The notes under the pieces are model-generated. The model saw nothing but the letters and a program-made list of their open reading frames with translations, was not told the origin of the DNA and made no database searches. A program made the translations under genes and the position numbers. Shown here piece after piece: positions 564 through 21,124 of a stretch of 21,124 nt of DNA; position 1 is the first letter of the stretch, and every line of letters begins with the position of its first letter. The DNA is taken from the IMG/VR virus record IMGVR_UViG_3300037226_000019, positions 1 to 21,124 of that record; one strand, written 5' to 3'. The stretch is from a virus.

Positions 564-2882
564 TTAAAGTTTTACTAATTCAACGGTGCACAGGTGGCCT
601 GGAACGTAATTTGTGATTTTGTTAACGTAAAAATACGCGCTGAACTGCCTGAGATAAATGGGGATGTAATGTTTGAGGCCTGCTACCTCATAAACCGGTA
701 GGTTGAATTTCTCATTCCGTAGATTTGTTTTGGTCAGCATCCGGGAGAGGGCTGCATAGTTAATGTTCAAAAGTGAAAAAGCCACCTCGATGGATGAGGC
801 CTTTTGTGGGGTGATCGTGTCGTATGAAGTTCCTCCCGATACCGCTGTTCTGATTCCGAATGTCTTTTCATAAAGAGGGCTTACTGCCGATACCTTTGTC
901 CTGGAAACGTAAACGATCCGGGGGTCGATGCTGTCTTTTTGTACATAAGTCACCGGCGTTTTCCCATCGCTTATGTTGAAGGCTATCCGGGAGACATTAA
1001 CATCGATCAGAATTTTTACTTCATCGCAGGTTGAAACCGGGATCTGCACCACGTCTTTTTCTGCCGGGAGGGTTTCGTCGTCTATTTGTATCACTCCATT
1101 GCCGTTGTTTTTTATGACGTCGCTGGAGTCTTTATACTTGAGGTTGTTTCGCTGCGCATAATCCCCAAATTTGAACTCGCAGTCGGTTTCCGCTTCTGAT
1201 AAATATTCCGACCAGTCTCTCGCAATTGGTATATTGTCATATAGCTCTGAATAGTTCCAGAATTTTATCTTTTTGTCCCTGGGGACGGCTTCCGGGATGA
1301 GTCCGAATAAATTGCAAATCATCTTTAAAAAGTCCGTCTGGCTTATGTCTGGTAGCAGGAAGTGCGGCTCAACATTTGAAAGATATGCTATTTTAACTGC
1401 CGTGATGCCTGTCACTTGGATGTCATAGTAAGCGAGCCCGGTCGTGGTAACCACTACCCGGAGGGTGTCCAGGGCTGTCGTTGTATAGTCCACAGTATAA
1501 GCCCGGAGCCATGCGTTTGTGTGGTATGTTCCATCATCCTTGAATTCGGCGACCTGGACGGCGTCGTTATACAAATAAACATGGGATGGCAAATAGAAAC
1601 TACCTCCTGCTGCTTTCAAAACGACCCGGATGGTATAGCTCGCTGCATACCGGGTTATGTATCTTCCGTTCATCTTAAAAAACGAGTCTCCCAGGATGCA
1701 AGTGACGTCGGCATAAACCGTATCGAGTGCGTTCCTGCTTGCGTTCATTACTTTGTGGTTTATTGCGTGTAATGAATAAAGCCAGGGCTTAATGTCGACG
1801 TTTGAAAGATTCAAATTTGAAACCGGCATAAAAAGGCTGTTAAAAATATCGTCATCCAGGATCTTGCCTGCGCAAAAATAAGCGGCATTGGTGAATATCT
1901 CATTCCAAATTGCCCGGATCTTAATGAAAGGCCAGATCCAGCCTCCAAACATTTCGACCCGATCGCCGTCGTCTGTGAGCGGGGCGATTCCGCCGTCGTC
2001 TGATGGTTCGCAAAGTGGATAGACATAGTCCAGGTTTCCTGCGTTGCTCGCTGCCTGAATTACGGCTGCCCATATGTGGTTCGTTGATGGGAGGAGAAGG
2101 TCCGTGATTTTGAGCTTATCAATTGCGTTGAAAAAATTGAGGTTTCCGGATAAAATTGAAACGTAGTAATATTGATCGTCCGCGTTGGTAAGCGTCATTA
2201 TCCCTGCGGTTATTATCTCGATATTGTTCTGGACCAAACGGCAGGGCTGATTTTTATAGGGGAAAGTCGTGTTGGCTCCTGCATCACCAGATAATTCAAA
2301 AAGCAAACGCATTGCCCTGGTCTTTCTAATCTTGAATGTTCCTGTGAAGTCCGATTGCCGGTCCTTCATCTCTGCGACGTCATTAACCTGTTTATTGATC
2401 GGGATCATTTCGTCGTCATCCAGGTCGCAGAGCTGGTCCCCTAAATATAGGAATTGGCTCTTCTGAAAAACGGAGGGCGCATTCGGAAGCTCTTTCCGGG
2501 TGATCTCAAATTCAAAAATATAACCCGGCGCTCCCTCTTCTTTGATCGTGTGTGCTCCGCGGGTGATGTCCACCTCATACCACTTCTCGTTTTCATATTG
2601 CTCGACCATTTCTGCCATAAGCACTCCGGTGAATGCTCCGATGTTTTCTTTGGTTATTCCTTCCAGGCCAACGGTATATGAATACTTTGCTGTGATCATT
2701 GTGGCTCGCTCGATCCTGGATATGACAGAAAACTTCTTTGTCACCATCGTATCGGCATTCTCGGTCTGCATGGTTACTTCGTATCCGTTGGTAAACAGAA
2801 AATAATGCCAGCCATTAAAATACCAGCGGAGGTATATTCCTTCGCTGCATCGTATAATCGGTATGCGTATGAGTTTTATCAT
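564..2882 (-). CDS. Large tail/baseplate-type structural protein (772 aa)
   Basis: This protein is 772 aa long and overlaps the FISUMP adhesin gene by ATGA. Its N-terminus (residues 15-28) carries GIYLRWYFNGWHYF, almost the same motif as at the start of the next upstream gene, so the two share a paralogous N-terminal domain of roughly 110 residues. The rest looks beta-rich, with many Tyr, Thr, Val and Ile residues, and has no enzyme motif that I recognise. Its place between an adhesin and the tape measure gene suggests a distal tail, baseplate or tail-associated protein that the shared domain docks onto the tail. The exact role is unknown. A hub or receptor-binding protein is possible, but nothing in the sequence decides this. 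Confidence 0.6.
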   Translation of the reverse strand: MIKLIRIPIIRCSEGIYLRWYFNGWHYFLFTNGYEVTMQTENADTMVTKKFSVISRIERATMITAKYSYTVGLEGITKENIGAFTGVLMAEMVEQYENEKWYEVDITRGAHTIKEEGAPGYIFEFEITRKELPNAPSVFQKSQFLYLGDQLCDLDDDEMIPINKQVNDVAEMKDRQSDFTGTFKIRKTRAMRLLFELSGDAGANTTFPYKNQPCRLVQNNIEIITAGIMTLTNADDQYYYVSILSGNLNFFNAIDKLKITDLLLPSTNHIWAAVIQAASNAGNLDYVYPLCEPSDDGGIAPLTDDGDRVEMFGGWIWPFIKIRAIWNEIFTNAAYFCAGKILDDDIFNSLFMPVSNLNLSNVDIKPWLYSLHAINHKVMNASRNALDTVYADVTCILGDSFFKMNGRYITRYAASYTIRVVLKAAGGSFYLPSHVYLYNDAVQVAEFKDDGTYHTNAWLRAYTVDYTTTALDTLRVVVTTTGLAYYDIQVTGITAVKIAYLSNVEPHFLLPDISQTDFLKMICNLFGLIPEAVPRDKKIKFWNYSELYDNIPIARDWSEYLSEAETDCEFKFGDYAQRNNLKYKDSSDVIKNNGNGVIQIDDETLPAEKDVVQIPVSTCDEVKILIDVNVSRIAFNISDGKTPVTYVQKDSIDPRIVYVSRTKVSAVSPLYEKTFGIRTAVSGGTSYDTITPQKASSIEVAFSLLNINYAALSRMLTKTNLRNEKFNLPVYEVAGLKHYIPIYLRQFSAYFYVNKITNYVPGHLCTVELVKL

Positions 2883-4642
2883 TCTGCGCTTCTATCGGTT
2901 GAGTCGTAAAAAATACTATATGCCCTGTTCTTTAATTGTGGCAATCCTGTAATCCATTGGTTAAATGCCAGACCGTCTTTTGCTCCAAACGATAGCACGT
3001 TTCCAATCACCGGATCTAAAACTCCTCCGTCCCGGACCCATACGTACATTGTTCGGGATCCGCTTCCGGAATAGAATCCGTTTGGTGTTCCGGTTATTCT
3101 GATCGTTTGGTCATTCCATGCTGCGGATCCTGATGGTCCTGAAGAGAAGCCTGGCGTCCATGCGGCTTCATGATTGAAAAATGGGGGGTCGCCATAACCA
3201 TAGAAGGTCTGTGCTCCTGATGCCGTTGCTCCATAAAGCATCAAATCGCTGCTGTTGGCTATCGTAATTGAAAAACTTTTATTTGTTAGGTCCTCGTTGT
3301 TTGCTATGGGGTTAACTTTTACGATCATCCCGGTTGTAAAGATTCCGTCCAGGACCTGTTCTGAATTATCCGCTTTCCAAATCTGGATATTAAAACCTTC
3401 ATATGAGGAGGCGCTTGCGATATACCATCTCGCCATGTTGGTGGTAACAACAAATTGTTTCTGGTCTGTCTCGTTCCACTTCCAGGTTAGTTCTGTAGGT
3501 TCAACGCTTGCCGTGTCGGTGCTTGGTGTACCTACTATTCCGGGTCCTGTATTATCTCTGACGCAGCGAACAGAAAGACCTGATAAAAACAATTCCTGGC
3601 ACCATTCGGGAATTATATCTGCGCTATCATAACTTATAGTTGACTGTCTAATGGCATCAAGACCGGGAGCATAATAGTCAGGAATCACGGTTGAACTCCA
3701 AAAATTAAAATGTATTTTAAGCTGTTCAAAAGAACCACCATATGTTCTTATTCCTGCGCCTCTGGCCCTGAATCCGACCTCATCAGTTGCTCCTGTGTTT
3801 GGACTATCCCAATGTGCGGTACCAGTTTCTTTCAATCTTCCTGCTCCTCCTGCACTCACGTTTATATAATCAAATAATTTTTGCCAGTCCGCTTCTGTGG
3901 GGATTCTCCATCCGGCTTCCGGGATTCCGTTTCTCTCAAAGTAAGCGAGGCCTCTCGCATCTTTAATTACAAATCCATTATAAATTAATCCATAAGGAGT
4001 TTTGTTGCTCAAATCGTTATTAAAAATACAATATGCAGGCGTTGTTCCTGTTCCCGCCTGATACCACGCGGTATCTGATATCAAGTTTGTTATTGGTGAT
4101 CCATCTGCAAACTTAGTTGTTTGCAGGTTTTCAACAATAAACTCTTGATCGCTTATTCTAACCGTAGTATAAATATTCCCATCAATGTCTTTCAAGTCGC
4201 CAGAAGGTGGAGGGGGCGGTGGTGGCGGGGGAGGTGGCGGGATCACTGGTATAAAATTTACAGGGGTATATCCGGTTTCCTTGCTTCCCACGATTGCATT
4301 AAATTCAAATTCAAATCCGCTTATTTTAGTCCCTGCAAATATGACGCTGGTCGGGTCTATCCTTATGTTCATCCATCCATAAATGGTGAGCAGCGATACC
4401 TCGATGGCATTAAAAATTGTTTTAATTGCTGCGCTCTGAGGTGTAGTTATTTGTCCTGATCCCAGGGATAATTTTCGGGTACCGAGTGTTCGGTATTTCT
4501 CCCCTTCTGTATTAAAACTTATTTTCCCAGGCAGAAAGTTCCAATAATGCCATCCGTTATAATACCAGCGTAGGTAGTATCCTGGCTTCGGTTTTGCGAC
4601 AGGAATCCGGCAGGCAGCGTATATGTTTTTTCCCCATCCCAT
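2879..4642 (-). CDS. Tail adhesin with poly-Pro linker, FISUMP domain and BACON-like domain (587 aa)
   Basis: Domains in order: an N-terminal tail-attachment domain with GYYLRWYYNGWHYW (residues 21-34, shared with the 772-aa neighbour); a run of 12 prolines (135-146); a FISUMP (Fibrobacter succinogenes major paralogous) domain at about 149-364, recognised by VRISDQEFIVENLQTTKFADG, GWRIPTEADW, LKETGTAHW, PNTGATDEVGF, FWSST and the closing SVRCVRD; a BACON-like beta domain at about 380-470 (LTWKWN ... VVTTNMARWYI); and a C-terminal region without recognised motif. FISUMP domains have a C-type-lectin-like relation and BACON domains are linked to glycan or mucin binding, so I infer a surface-binding tail fibre or tip protein. 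It begins by TAATG overlap with the 313-aa gene and ends by ATGA overlap with the 772-aa gene. Confidence 0.7.
   Translation of the reverse strand: MGWGKNIYAACRIPVAKPKPGYYLRWYYNGWHYWNFLPGKISFNTEGEKYRTLGTRKLSLGSGQITTPQSAAIKTIFNAIEVSLLTIYGWMNIRIDPTSVIFAGTKISGFEFEFNAIVGSKETGYTPVNFIPVIPPPPPPPPPPPPSGDLKDIDGNIYTTVRISDQEFIVENLQTTKFADGSPITNLISDTAWYQAGTGTTPAYCIFNNDLSNKTPYGLIYNGFVIKDARGLAYFERNGIPEAGWRIPTEADWQKLFDYINVSAGGAGRLKETGTAHWDSPNTGATDEVGFRARGAGIRTYGGSFEQLKIHFNFWSSTVIPDYYAPGLDAIRQSTISYDSADIIPEWCQELFLSGLSVRCVRDNTGPGIVGTPSTDTASVEPTELTWKWNETDQKQFVVTTNMARWYIASASSYEGFNIQIWKADNSEQVLDGIFTTGMIVKVNPIANNEDLTNKSFSITIANSSDLMLYGATASGAQTFYGYGDPPFFNHEAAWTPGFSSGPSGSAAWNDQTIRITGTPNGFYSGSGSRTMYVWVRDGGVLDPVIGNVLSFGAKDGLAFNQWITGLPQLKNRAYSIFYDSTDRSAE
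4205..4240 (-). repeat. Twelve-codon proline run in the adhesin gene
   Basis: Twelve successive CCN codons form a hinge between the tail-attachment and FISUMP domains. All four proline codons are used, so the protein repeat is kept while the DNA is less than perfectly repetitive. The plus strand here is almost pure purine-rich G tract. Poly-Pro runs stall ribosomes unless EF-P acts, so the run may also slow translation between domains. Confidence 0.85.
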
Positions 4643-6188: not shown

Positions 6189-6656
6189 TTATGGTTTTGG
6201 GATCACTATCCAGTTTCCGTCTTCGTCACACTTGAGTTGGTTCTCCAGTGGTTTTAATGTCAGCTCCAGGGACCATCCGATCGGGTTCGTGTCGTACTTT
6301 GTTTCCGGGATCTTCGTTGCCGGAATGGTGTCCATCTTCTGAAATATCTCGCTTCCGATCAAAAGTAAAACAAACCGCTCAGCGATCTGGAACAGGTACG
6401 TGTATTTTTCCTCGTTGTTATCGGCTGAGTCTTCCAGGTTCACTTGCTGCATTATTTCGACGCGATATGGGATGTATTCCTCCTGGATCCCATTTCCCTT
6501 AATGTTCAGGTTGATGGTATCTGGCTGGATTGCCAGGCCTATGATATCTGCTGGTCCGCTTTCGTCTGTTCTGAGATTGGCGATTTCCTTCGCTTCGTAT
6601 ATCACCTTCGTGCATCCGGCTGTCGTCAGAAGCGTTTTTATTGTTGAGGTTATCAT
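6189..6656 (-). CDS. Putative tail terminator or connector protein (155 aa)
   Basis: This 155-aa protein opens with MITSTIKTLLTTAGCTKVIY and has alternating hydrophobic strands and a central helix (YLFQIAERFVLLLIGSEIF), an alpha/beta layout seen in small tail terminator proteins. No family could be named from the sequence. Its ATG overlaps the stop of the sigma factor gene (ATGA), so its translation is probably coupled to that of the sigma factor, and the 148-aa putative connector follows after four bases. Position argues for a virion component at the head-tail junction. Confidence 0.45.
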   Translation of the reverse strand: MITSTIKTLLTTAGCTKVIYEAKEIANLRTDESGPADIIGLAIQPDTINLNIKGNGIQEEYIPYRVEIMQQVNLEDSADNNEEKYTYLFQIAERFVLLLIGSEIFQKMDTIPATKIPETKYDTNPIGWSLELTLKPLENQLKCDEDGNWIVIPKP

Positions 6657-7171
6657 GCTATCAGTTTTTTTAGTTGTTTCCTGGCTCTGAAAAGGTAGGC
6701 CCTTAATAGGTTAGACCGGTTGCCATATCCGTTGATCTGTCGGATAATTGCTTGCTTATAATTTGGCTGTAAGCAGTTAATGGCTTCCCGGATTGAGATC
6801 CTGGTTTCTCCCGATATGATTTTTTGCAATTGGTTAGGATCCTGGTTCTCAATCGTATTTATTAATAGATCGATGTCGTCGATTGTTTTGCGCCGGTTTC
6901 GGTATTTCAAAAAGTCCAGGGCAGTGTTGGTCGCTATCTTTGCGAGCCAGGTTTTGAATAAATTATTAGGGATAAAGGTTTCTATTTTTAGGTATGCCTT
7001 TGTAAAGGTTTCCATCATTAGGTCCTCTGCATCGGTGTCGTTACCCACGATCGATTTGATCAAATAAAAGGTGGGCTTCTCATGCCTGGTAAATATCTCA
7101 TTAAAGGCGTTTTTGTCTCCTGCTCTGATTTTATGCAGCGAGACCAGGTCGATATCAACCTTATCAGTCAT
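6653..7171 (-). CDS. RNA polymerase sigma-70 family (ECF-like) factor with shortened region 4
   Basis: The 172-aa protein reads as a two-domain ECF-type sigma factor. Region 2 (about residues 16-95) is clear: DAEDLMMETFTKAYLKIETF then FKTWLAKIATNTALDFLKYRNRR, which in the family binds the beta' coiled coil and the -10 element. Region 4 (about 125-172) ends in FRARKQLKKL, as usual, but the helix-turn-helix is short. Between LQPNYKQAIIRQINGYG and the final helix there are only a few residues (NRSN), where the family has about nine more containing the EIA...L first helix. -35 recognition may therefore be lost or altered. It overlaps the glycosyltransferase gene by 8 bp and the next gene by ATGA. 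I infer a phage regulator of host RNA polymerase, perhaps for late genes. Confidence 0.85.
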   Translation of the reverse strand: MTDKVDIDLVSLHKIRAGDKNAFNEIFTRHEKPTFYLIKSIVGNDTDAEDLMMETFTKAYLKIETFIPNNLFKTWLAKIATNTALDFLKYRNRRKTIDDIDLLINTIENQDPNQLQKIISGETRISIREAINCLQPNYKQAIIRQINGYGNRSNLLRAYLFRARKQLKKLIA

Positions 7172-8192
7172 CTCTGTGGTGATGGAATGCTTCCTGCATA
7201 AACCTGTGCCATTTCCTTTTTGCTTCCCGGTTGTATTCCATCAGAGCGGTGCGGGTCAGTTGTTTCAGGGCGAAGTCGTTGCGGTGATGATATACCCATA
7301 TGATTTTTGCGACTGCCTGCTCGTAGTTGGTTGTGGATGCCTGCATAATTTCTGGCATCCAGTCGATGGCCTGGCTGGCCACCAGAAGTTTATTTTTGCT
7401 GATAAAATCTGCAGCCACGATGTTGAAACTCTCTGTGTAAGAAAGCTGCAGGCCCAGGTCCATCTTGGATATGAGTTTATGGAATTTGTCGGTGTCCATC
7501 CATGGGTGGATTACCAGTTCGTGTTCTGTCGTTTCAAAAATCTGCACCAGGTTCCGGAAGACCGGATCGTTCTCGCTGGTCAGGTGGGGTGTTATGTGAA
7601 ACATCAGTTTTTTGTGCATTTTGTTGGCGGCTTCAATTGCGCAGAGTGCCTGGAAGCATTGGTTCTTTAAAATCCGGAGCGCTCCAAAACAACCGATGTG
7701 AATGCGGCTCCGCTCCCTGGTGTAATCTTCCAGCGGTTCGTGGAAGGTTATCACGTTCGGGAGGTATACGAAGGGGTGGTCCAGGCAGTTGGTCATCGCC
7801 TTATTAAAACTGGCATTGTTAAAAGAAATTACCAGGCCGCGTCCGAGTTCGATGTAATCGTTTATGTATTTTATCCCATTGCCCTCTTCCGAAAGGTAGC
7901 CTATATCGCTGTGGATCCGGACGGCCCATCTGCGGTGATGGTGTCTGTGCAACATCATAAGTTCGGCCAGTTTATGGGCGCTTACCCACAGGGCCTCTAT
8001 TATAACCAGGTCTGCATCGAATGCTGTTACTTCCCGGTCTATGCTATTGCTGTCAATTACAGAAACGACCTTGCAGAGGTTCCCTTGCTCCGTTAAATAG
8101 GCGGCTACCTGGCTGGCAGAATTGATAAGGCCATATGATCCTCTGGCTGGGGAATAATGGCGATGTTTAAGGATAAATAATACTTTTTTCAT
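7164..8192 (-). CDS. GT-B type glycosyltransferase (342 aa)
   Basis: The protein starts MKKVLFILKHRHY, followed by a first Rossmann-like domain, and has in its C-terminal half the typical second-domain features of GT4-like enzymes: a strand-turn IHIGCFGALRILKNQ (165-178) and TESFNIVAADFI (253-264), which matches the E-x-F-...-E/A motif region that binds the nucleotide sugar. It probably transfers a sugar from a nucleotide donor; the acceptor is unknown. It overlaps its upstream gene by ATGA and the sigma factor by 8 bp, so it is integral to the late operon. Candidate acceptors are virion proteins, host surface glycans (superinfection exclusion) or modified DNA bases. The sequence does not discriminate. 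Confidence 0.75.
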   Translation of the reverse strand: MKKVLFILKHRHYSPARGSYGLINSASQVAAYLTEQGNLCKVVSVIDSNSIDREVTAFDADLVIIEALWVSAHKLAELMMLHRHHHRRWAVRIHSDIGYLSEEGNGIKYINDYIELGRGLVISFNNASFNKAMTNCLDHPFVYLPNVITFHEPLEDYTRERSRIHIGCFGALRILKNQCFQALCAIEAANKMHKKLMFHITPHLTSENDPVFRNLVQIFETTEHELVIHPWMDTDKFHKLISKMDLGLQLSYTESFNIVAADFISKNKLLVASQAIDWMPEIMQASTTNYEQAVAKIIWVYHHRNDFALKQLTRTALMEYNREAKRKWHRFMQEAFHHHRDD

Positions 8193-8848
8193 TTGGATTT
8201 AGATTTGCTTTTTATTTTGGCTTCACTTTCTTCTCTTAAGATTTCGTAGTAACGCTCCTGATATACTGCCTGCTCTTTTGCCATCATAAACCGGACCAGG
8301 CATTCGTTGTAAGGGGTGAGGAGGACCTGTTCTTCTGTTTTGTTCATTGTGCTCCGAAGGAAATCGATTGAATTTAATTCTGCAAAAATACTCAATTTGT
8401 TAATCCCGGCTGCCTTCTCTTGATTCGATGGCTCCCGGTAGAGGAGCTTCTGTTCCCTGGTCACCAGTTCTCCGAGTAAATTGATCAGGGAAAGTGCGAC
8501 CGGGTATAAATTAATCACGGTGCAAGTTAGAACCTTTTTTCCGAATATCAACGCTTTTCTGTCGTCCCACTTTTTTCCTGTGTGGATCGGATAAAAAAAT
8601 CCGTCCATTGTCCGGAGGATCATTGCATAATCATCCTTTTCTGGTTGCGCCAAGAATAGGCGCTGTGCGTAGCAAAGTTTATCAGAAAACTCCTCCAGCG
8701 TTTTGGGTACCGAGTGCTCCTGGAAGCCGATAAATATTTTTTCCGGGACGGGAAGTTCGACCAGGCCGTCGGCGACCCGATCGTATGTCGGCTGGTGTTT
8801 CATCATCTGCAGCAGGGTCAGTTTCTCGATGGGGATTATCCGTGCCAT
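8189..8848 (-). CDS. Conserved phage protein after terminase, unknown (219 aa)
   Basis: The 219-aa product begins inside the last codons of terL (13-bp overlap) and ends by ATGA overlap with the glycosyltransferase. It is largely helical, has a hydrophobic segment around ALSLINLLGELV, a helical C-terminal half rich in Glu, Gln, Arg and Lys, and a terminal KIKSKSKSK tail. I do not recognise a family. In most siphoviruses the gene after terL encodes the portal, but at 219 aa and with this composition it is too small to be a usual portal. A packaging accessory protein or small structural protein are options. Confidence 0.5.
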   Translation of the reverse strand: MARIIPIEKLTLLQMMKHQPTYDRVADGLVELPVPEKIFIGFQEHSVPKTLEEFSDKLCYAQRLFLAQPEKDDYAMILRTMDGFFYPIHTGKKWDDRKALIFGKKVLTCTVINLYPVALSLINLLGELVTREQKLLYREPSNQEKAAGINKLSIFAELNSIDFLRSTMNKTEEQVLLTPYNECLVRFMMAKEQAVYQERYYEILREESEAKIKSKSKSK

Positions 8849-10536: not shown

Positions 10537-10544
10537 CAAAGGTA
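10537..10544 (-). promoter_or_regulatory. Putative late promoter -7 box TACCTTTG upstream of terS
   Basis: The minus strand reads TACCTTTG, a full match to the Bacteroidota -7 consensus TAnnTTTG, 33 bases before the terS ATG. There is no TTTG at the normal -33 distance; with a 20-base spacer the four bases there are TGGT, part of the first GGTCGGA heptamer. This suggests a promoter that needs an activator. Assignment is by pattern only. Confidence 0.55.
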
Positions 10545-10560
10545 CGCTATCTTTTTATTT

Positions 10561-10672
10561 TCCGACCATACCGGGGTCGGAGTCATGGTCGGAAGGGTCG
10601 GAATATATACAAAAAACGCGGGGTATCAATAAGTTATAATTCCGACCCAGGGTCGGAATGAGGGTCGGAATT
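10561..10672. repeat. Array of seven GGTCGGA heptamers in two clusters
   Basis: The heptamer GGTCGGA occurs on the plus strand at 10575, 10587, 10596, 10651 and 10663, and inverted (TCCGACC) at 10561 and 10641. Each cluster starts with one inverted copy followed by direct copies spaced 9 to 12 bases. In the second cluster 10639-10659 is a perfect 10-bp inverted repeat around one base. The array fills most of the 210-base gap between the 88-aa gene and terS. It may bind a phage activator or repressor, or TerS itself (pac site). Confidence 0.8.
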
Positions 10673-17626: not shown

Positions 17627-18262
17627 TTATTTATATTTCCATTTAAAGTTACCTGCTGTTTTTCTTTTCCCTTGAAGTACTGCATTCATATTTGGAATTC
17701 CAAGTTCTTTTGCTGCAAAGTTCTGTCCCTTCCATTCTCTGATAAATTGATCATTTCTATCAAATTGTAAAATTGGAATTCTCTGCTTTTTTTTAGAGGA
17801 TTCGGATTGGTGTCTTCCTTTCATCGGGCTGGTCCTACCTTTCATTTTTTTTCTCATCATTTCACGGAAGGCTGGCGAGTGTTTAAGGGTATCTTTTTTG
17901 CCTTTATTCCATGGAATTCTTCCCTTTCTCACTTCACTGAGATGGGCGAGGGTTTCTGCTGTTGGTCTTATTCCGGTTGTTCTTCCCGCTATTCTGCAAA
18001 TATTAAAACAAGGGTTGAGGGAATCAATATAAAACTGCTCTCGCTCAATCAAGTTATTTTCTCCCTCTACGTATTCTATCGGGTCCATTTTCAAATCTAA
18101 AATTCCGTATTTATTGACGTGGTTTTGTAAAAAAACAGAATGATGGGTTCCTTTTTTAAGAGCCCGGAGGTGTTCTCTTTTCCTCTTTTGATAATCGATT
18201 GAACTTCCAATATAAAACCGCATTGGCTGAGAAATGGAGGCTATTTTATAAACTACACTCAT
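17627..18262 (-). CDS. GIY-YIG homing endonuclease with NUMOD domains (211 aa)
   Basis: Residues 1-90 form a GIY-YIG nuclease: VVYKIAS ... FYIGSSIDYQKRKREHL ... KYG ... EREQFYID. The first half of the motif is VYK rather than GIY. Next are NUMOD3-type DNA-binding repeats (RKGRIPWNKGK and GRTSPMKGRHQSESS) and a NUMOD1-like C-terminus (ILQFDRNDQFIREWKG ... GNFKWKYK). It is a free-standing mobile gene inserted between two small genes, with ATGA overlap upstream. The DNA is visibly more AT-rich than its neighbours, fitting recent transfer. Confidence 0.9.
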   Translation of the reverse strand: MSVVYKIASISQPMRFYIGSSIDYQKRKREHLRALKKGTHHSVFLQNHVNKYGILDLKMDPIEYVEGENNLIEREQFYIDSLNPCFNICRIAGRTTGIRPTAETLAHLSEVRKGRIPWNKGKKDTLKHSPAFREMMRKKMKGRTSPMKGRHQSESSKKKQRIPILQFDRNDQFIREWKGQNFAAKELGIPNMNAVLQGKRKTAGNFKWKYK

Positions 18263-20990: not shown

Positions 20991-20996
20991 GTTTGG

Positions 20997-21028
20997 CTAA
21001 GGTAATATATTATTTTGTTATCCACAAA
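20997..21028 (-). promoter_or_regulatory. Bacteroidota-type promoter TTTG-N20-TACCTTAG
   Basis: On the minus strand TTTG (21028-21025) is followed by 20 bases and then TACCTTAG (21004-20997), one mismatch from TAnnTTTG. The box ends seven bases before ATG 20990, so the transcript may be nearly leaderless. Confidence 0.5.
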
Positions 21029-21124
21029 TTAAATAGTGATTTTTGCGTTTTTAACGTCGATGAACTGGCCTCCGTAATCTTCGACCTTCTTTAATAGGAT
21101 CTGGATGTTTCCGGAGAGGCTCTT
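21029..21124 (-). CDS. C-terminal 31 residues of an upstream gene (partial)
   Basis: The frame from the window edge ends in TAA at 21029-21031 and encodes KSLSGNIQILLKKVEDYGGQ and 11 more residues. Too little remains to name it. It is on the same strand as the other genes and ends 38 bases before the next start, where a promoter-like sequence lies. Confidence 0.55.
   Translation of the reverse strand, partial: KSLSGNIQILLKKVEDYGGQFIDVKNAKITI

Follow-up and report, generated by a model that had tools for sequence, protein, structure and literature searches.

A phage ECF-type sigma factor with a shortened region 4, carried in an accessory cassette of a late gene array

The viral record IMGVR_UViG_3300037226_000019 encodes a 172-aa ECF-type sigma factor in which region 2 is intact and region 4 has lost the first helix of its helix–turn–helix (HTH). 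We tentatively read the protein, with a probability of roughly 0.4, as an ECF sigma altered by a deletion specific to its lineage, which would be driven by region 2 and blind to the −33 element. The window analysed here is the whole stretch of 21,124 bases making up the record, which IMG/VR classes as linear and for which it holds no completeness data. All large genes of the window lie on the minus strand and run, from its high end, from recombination genes through terS and terL to tail genes. Bacteroides and Flavobacterium phages are among those matched by the window TerL, which points to a probable host in the Bacteroidota.

The sigma gene occupies positions 6653–7171 on the minus strand, as the sequence-only reading had it, with an open frame, matches in Pfam, PHROG and NCBIfam, and overlaps with both neighbours: 8 nt with a glycosyltransferase-like gene (7164–7171) and 4 nt with the next gene (ATGA, 6653–6656). 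Region 2 (residues 27–94, 6890–7093, minus strand) is complete, matching profile positions 2–71 of 71 in PF04542 (E 1.8e-13, 50.5 bits). In the predicted structure it superposes to 0.9 Å on region 2 of Escherichia coli sigma-E bound to −10 DNA (PDB 4lup; TM 0.93 by target length for the window model), which makes docking on RNA polymerase and reading of a −10 element plausible. Only this region 2 match is used from the fold comparisons, because domain orientation renders the whole-chain RMSD uninformative; fold-search E-values differ between the window model and that of a full-length control, L027. The protein also passes the curated sigma70-ECF model TIGR02937 (58.7 bits, cut-off 42.9) and is matched by the NCBIfam SigW and RpoE models. 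Judged by region 2 and overall sequence, it belongs to the ECF sigma lineage, and ‘deletion derivative of an ECF sigma’ is its best name, since a complete region 4, the defining feature, is absent.

The shortening of region 4 is seen in profile, length and structural comparisons alike. First, PF08281 aligns with the window protein over profile positions 3–27 of 54 only (13.6 bits, cut-off 25.7), and 39 of 40 aligned family members match Sigma70_r4 (PF04545, E<=0.1), the window protein being the sole exception.

Second, the distance between two anchor residues, L134 and R162, was compared with that in 51 non-redundant homologues, drawn from a viral set (31 homologue loci, the near-identical contig aside) and a genome set (48 locus sequences from Bacteroidota and one Clostridiales genome, some genes having been fetched twice). 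It measures 29 residues in the window protein, a spacing unique among the 52 sequences, against 39 (n=45), 38 (n=5) or 41 (n=1) in the homologues. The five 38-residue sequences are crAss-like factors; relative to these the deficit is exactly 9 residues, hence the 27 bases already named in the sequence-only reading, and relative to most others it is 10. That reading's estimate of nine or so missing residues, including the first HTH helix, was thus accurate.

Third, AlphaFold2 places region 4 helices of the window protein at residues 121–132, 136–147 and 154–171, and those of L027, modelled with the same alignment members, at 112–130, 134–145, 150–156 and 161–183; the short helix 150–156 of the control, the first HTH helix, is without counterpart in the window model. 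The two helices before the HTH are kept (residues 121–147, 6731–6811), as is the recognition helix NLLRAYLFRARKQLKKLI (residues 154–171, 6659–6712), which is near consensus. Between them, at a junction reading NGYGNRSN (residues 147–154, 6710–6733; all three segments on the minus strand), the first HTH helix has gone together with part of the turn, and all other sequences are longer at this point. The window model is only moderately confident in region 4 (pLDDT about 63–83 by blocks of ten), so the packing of its helices is not to be read closely. With the HTH scaffold lost, canonical reading of a −33/−35 element would be unlikely from the fold.

An artefact is an improbable source of the gap. 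A contig of another IMG/VR record, L001, differs from the window by 1 mismatch in 4875 bp and carries an identical sigma gene, which makes an assembly slip unlikely, although the two records may stem from related samples. The sequencing or assembly error that the sequence-only reading had held up against itself was accordingly not borne out at the level of contigs, the reads not being visible. Nor do the lost residues lie in another frame: the same-strand frames around 6710–6733, inspected by eye, give no missing helix, and there is no extra DNA at these bases.

Decay outside the gap was assessed by leave-one-out profile scores against the family. Region 2 scores 1.60 (family mean 1.81, sd 0.42; rank 13 of 51 from the bottom), the pre-HTH helices 1.08 (mean 1.23, sd 0.46; rank 18 of 51 from the bottom) and the recognition helix 1.73 (mean 1.51, sd 0.65; rank 31 of 51 from the bottom), whereas the junction, at −0.57 against a family mean of 2.05, comes below every other sequence. 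Apart from the gap the protein thus scores like a normal family member, with no general decay, and it follows that either the loss is recent or the remainder is under selection, two cases that one lineage cannot separate.

Profile scans of viral contigs, together with the DNA pattern for AYLFRARKQ, a profile scan of genome contigs, and 395 Bacteroidota genomes yielded either full-length homologues or the same phage, leaving no sign of a conserved truncated family. The sequence-only reading had counted homologues with a full region 4 against itself, and at the family level this is what is seen: every homologue checked is full-length. As far as these sequence searches reach, the collapse of region 4 belongs to this one phage lineage. 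We found nothing direct in the literature on ECF factors without region 4. Among the records retrieved, positions 1–532 of a 1.9-kb record labelled Salmonella phage (L020, OR851396.1) encode an ECF sigma resembling enterobacterial or gammaproteobacterial RpoE, which is probably host DNA in a phage preparation.

The sigma gene sits in the genome as one half of an insertion. The other half is a divergent glycosyltransferase-like gene of 342 aa (7164–8192, minus strand; phrog_2170, E 2e-4), and together the two form a 1.5-kb insertion between a conserved 219-aa gene on the left (8189–8848, minus strand), whose 45–55% identical homologues adjoin terL in related contigs, and a conserved 155-aa gene on the right (6189–6656, minus strand), with 39–46% identical homologues in related contigs. 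In twelve terL-related contigs (TerL identity 58–72%) the cassette is never present, nor does the slot hold the glycosyltransferase. Its two border genes, of 219 and 155 aa, are spaced by 0–24 bases in nine of the twelve and by 140 bases in L007, with tiny ORFs between them in L003 and L014; they are joined directly by a 4-nt overlap in L004 and L005 and by a one-base stop/start overlap in L013. The cassette itself keeps tight overlaps: it shares 4 nt with the 219-aa gene, its own two genes overlap by 8 nt and, at its far end, the sigma stop codon lies within the ATGA start of the 155-aa gene.

As relatives carry the same flanking genes without the cassette between them, we regard it as optional cargo. 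Nor does sigma region 2 (PF04542) occur anywhere in 8 related records, including five of 43–48 kb, with control genomes behaving as expected, which rules out a sigma factor conserved across the phage group. The sigma–glycosyltransferase pair is therefore an accessory cassette and not a conserved late-gene regulator. Its sigma gene is bacteria-derived. The functional coupling of sigma to tail genes that had been proposed from the gene order is unsupported, given an insertion absent from twelve contigs and a region 2 absent from 8 records. GC content and codon scores of the cassette fall within the range of other genes, so codon use does not mark it as foreign. Searches with the glycosyltransferase gave no matches in phage records, the PDB or 390 Bacteroidota genomes, an uninformative result in that no positive control matched either.

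Related phages differ in the small inserts that they carry around the 155-aa gene, in what appears to be a cargo slot within the late array: L014 has a 110-aa ORF in the same slot, L005 has ORFs of 112 and 301 aa between its 155- and 148-aa genes, and the variable positions lie at 2454–2797 in L003, 2549–2881 in L014 and 6320–7568 in L005.

Elsewhere in the window, a homing-endonuclease-like gene of the GIY-YIG/NUMOD3 type (17627–18262; GC 37% compared with 46% for the window) appears to be a free-standing mobile element. Two tail-region proteins, of 772 aa (564–2882) and 587 aa (2879–4642), share an N-terminal motif, YLRWYFNGWHYF / YLRWYYNGWHYW, that is also present in both of their counterparts in L004 (6982–11157), forming a duplicated domain. 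The second of these proteins contains a Fib_succ_major domain (E 6e-23) beside a proline run, which may bind the host surface.

The sequence-only reading had pointed to the terS promoter, with its missing TTTG box, as a late promoter that this sigma factor might serve. One promoter lacking a −35 element, that of terS, was examined. There is indeed no TTTG at −33, but the link to the sigma factor is not supported. Upstream of terS stands TACCTTTG (10537–10544, minus strand), a perfect fit to TAnnTTTG, the −7 consensus of Bacteroidota sigma-A (PMC9723704). Chance alone yields many matches to TAnnTTTG (19 present against 14.5 expected over the window), but few gaps here are truly intergenic, and this match falls in one of them. 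Farther upstream, at 10560–10671, are six TTCCGACC octamers in both orientations, including a perfect 21-nt palindrome, ATTCCGACCC-T-GGGTCGGAAT, and a spaced inverted repeat. The octamer occurs 7 times in the window against 0.79 expected, a count reached in 0 of 100 shuffles, and none of the 14 terL-related loci retrieved contains it. The array looks like a putative operator or activator array, and its innermost copy covers the −33 position, which better explains the missing TTTG box. The terS promoter is accordingly better explained by host sigma-A together with a DNA-binding regulator than by a −33-blind ECF factor; the sigma gene lies downstream of this promoter, in the same gene array. A scan for TTTG-N18-22-TANNTTTG promoters gave a single match in the window, no more than chance predicts, and no promoter assignable to the 172-aa sigma was found. 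At the high end of the window (20991–21124), upstream of an 87-aa ORF, TTTG-N20-TACCTTAG forms a near-canonical Bacteroidota −33/−7 promoter, the probable target of which is the recombination genes.

According to our preferred reading, an accessory Bacteroidota-style ECF sigma shares with a glycosyltransferase a variable slot of the late gene array, and in this lineage an in-frame deletion has removed the first HTH helix of its region 4. The resulting protein would dock on host RNA polymerase at the beta' clamp, with region 2 reading a −10/−7-type element and the collapsed region 4 no longer reading −33 canonically. Made late in infection, it may be a weak sigma, or one that depends on a partner, and show little preference at −33, in a working mode like that of T4 gp55 and unrelated to it by descent. 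What stands of the factor proposed from sequence, one steering RNA polymerase without −33 recognition and perhaps with a partner, is that canonical −33/−35 reading is unlikely from the fold; the links to tail genes and to terS, and the partner, found no support. Three points weigh against the preferred reading: the allele occurs in only one phage lineage, no partner-like or clamp-like protein is seen in the fragment, and the deletion may be recent and inactivating.

The last of these is a rival in its own right, and one that we hold nearly as likely as the preferred reading: that the cassette gene was recently inactivated, its function destroyed and the remainder intact only because the event is young. 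An accessory insertion absent from relatives, seen in a singleton lineage, is what this explanation would lead one to expect, and one-third of deletions are in frame by chance. Translation of the conserved gene that follows may have preserved the frame to the 3′ end, the two genes being coupled by the ATGA overlap at 6653–6656; overlaps of the same kind link the 219-aa gene of L004 and of L005 to its 155-aa neighbour. Opposed to inactivation are the lack of substitution decay anywhere outside the gap and the recovery of the same allele from a second record. Purifying selection after the deletion is not measurable, there being a single lineage.

Two further explanations appear improbable. The protein could be an RNA polymerase decoy, whose region 2 would take the sigma site on the clamp yet open promoters poorly, so that late competition with host sigma factors lowers host transcription. 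Such a role would suit a core-binding region 2 that is intact beside a damaged DNA-reading part, but the −10-reading part is intact too, and a decoy made inside the late array would compete with the sigma-A that apparently serves the terS promoter. Alternatively, the kept recognition helix could pack on the preceding helices, giving a rearranged region 4 that still reads −33 and an essentially ordinary ECF function. That helix is near consensus and is modelled as a helix; however, its usual scaffold, the first HTH helix, is gone, and region 4 is modelled at moderate confidence only. We likewise doubt the stronger proposal that an ECF sigma is here becoming a gp55-like, −35-blind phage sigma through adaptive loss of the helix, with a flap-holding partner supplied by the phage.

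Comparison with known systems bears on how a −33-blind deletion form might work. Among ECF factors, the closest likeness is to those of Bacteroidota and crAss-like phages (group IV, SigW/RpoE type), with which region 2, the pre-HTH helices and the recognition helix align at about 20–36% identity. The homologues checked each have a full HTH, whereas the window protein is without helix 1 and part of the turn (9–10 residues), and related phages lack its cassette. Ordinarily it is region 4 that grips the RNA polymerase flap and reads the −35 element (PMC7892883). T4 gp55 supports basal late transcription from promoters without −35 conservation (PMC7892883) and gains from gp33, a partner that binds the flap (PMC7892883, PMC2988020) and has no sigma homology (PMC2988020). 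The window protein would resemble gp55 as a phage sigma with docking of the domain-2 type and dispensable −35 reading (PMC7892883, PMC2988020); it differs in being a plain ECF with remnants of region 4, gp55 having diverged far within the sigma-70 family. A gp33-like partner or sliding clamp was not seen in the fragment, which is an incomplete contig; a partner of the gp33 kind would not show up as a sigma-4 match.

In SigO–RsoA of Bacillus subtilis, sigma-2 and sigma-4 are on separate chains (PMC8103513). The window protein shares with this system a sigma-2 without sigma-4 in the same chain (PMC8103513); RsoA, however, is sigma-2 only, with SigO as a separate partner, whereas the window protein still carries both ends of region 4 in its own chain. 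No other annotated protein of the incomplete window contig gave a Sigma70_r4 match, so no SigO-like partner was found there. These likenesses do not establish the protein as a gp55 or RsoA homologue. A third comparison is with the RpoE of an RNA-guided transcription complex (PDB 9n9q), also an ECF-type sigma, which is matched by both sequence and fold. The similarity is weak, 9n9q RpoE is longer (261 aa), and the L027 control fits it better than the window protein does; as, in addition, none of the annotated window genes encodes a Cas12-like protein, we set aside an RNA-guided sigma.

In one survey 86.6% of phage genomes had no sigma gene, and sporulation-like phage sigma genes are non-essential for lytic growth (PMC9429907). 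Phage sigma genes as non-essential cargo are thus already known (PMC9429907); new here is this particular deletion form, the importance of which hinges on an activity that is so far putative. If the protein is inactive, it would serve as a warning that phage structural operons can harbour sigma genes as passing cargo, and not necessarily as controllers of the operon. If it is active, it would be a natural experiment on how small region 4 can become in an ECF sigma, and it might stand between ordinary two-domain ECF factors and those phage sigmas, gp55 among them, that do not use sigma-4. Were the loss of the helix to prove adaptive in the manner of gp55, it would represent a second, independent origin of split-sigma late transcription.
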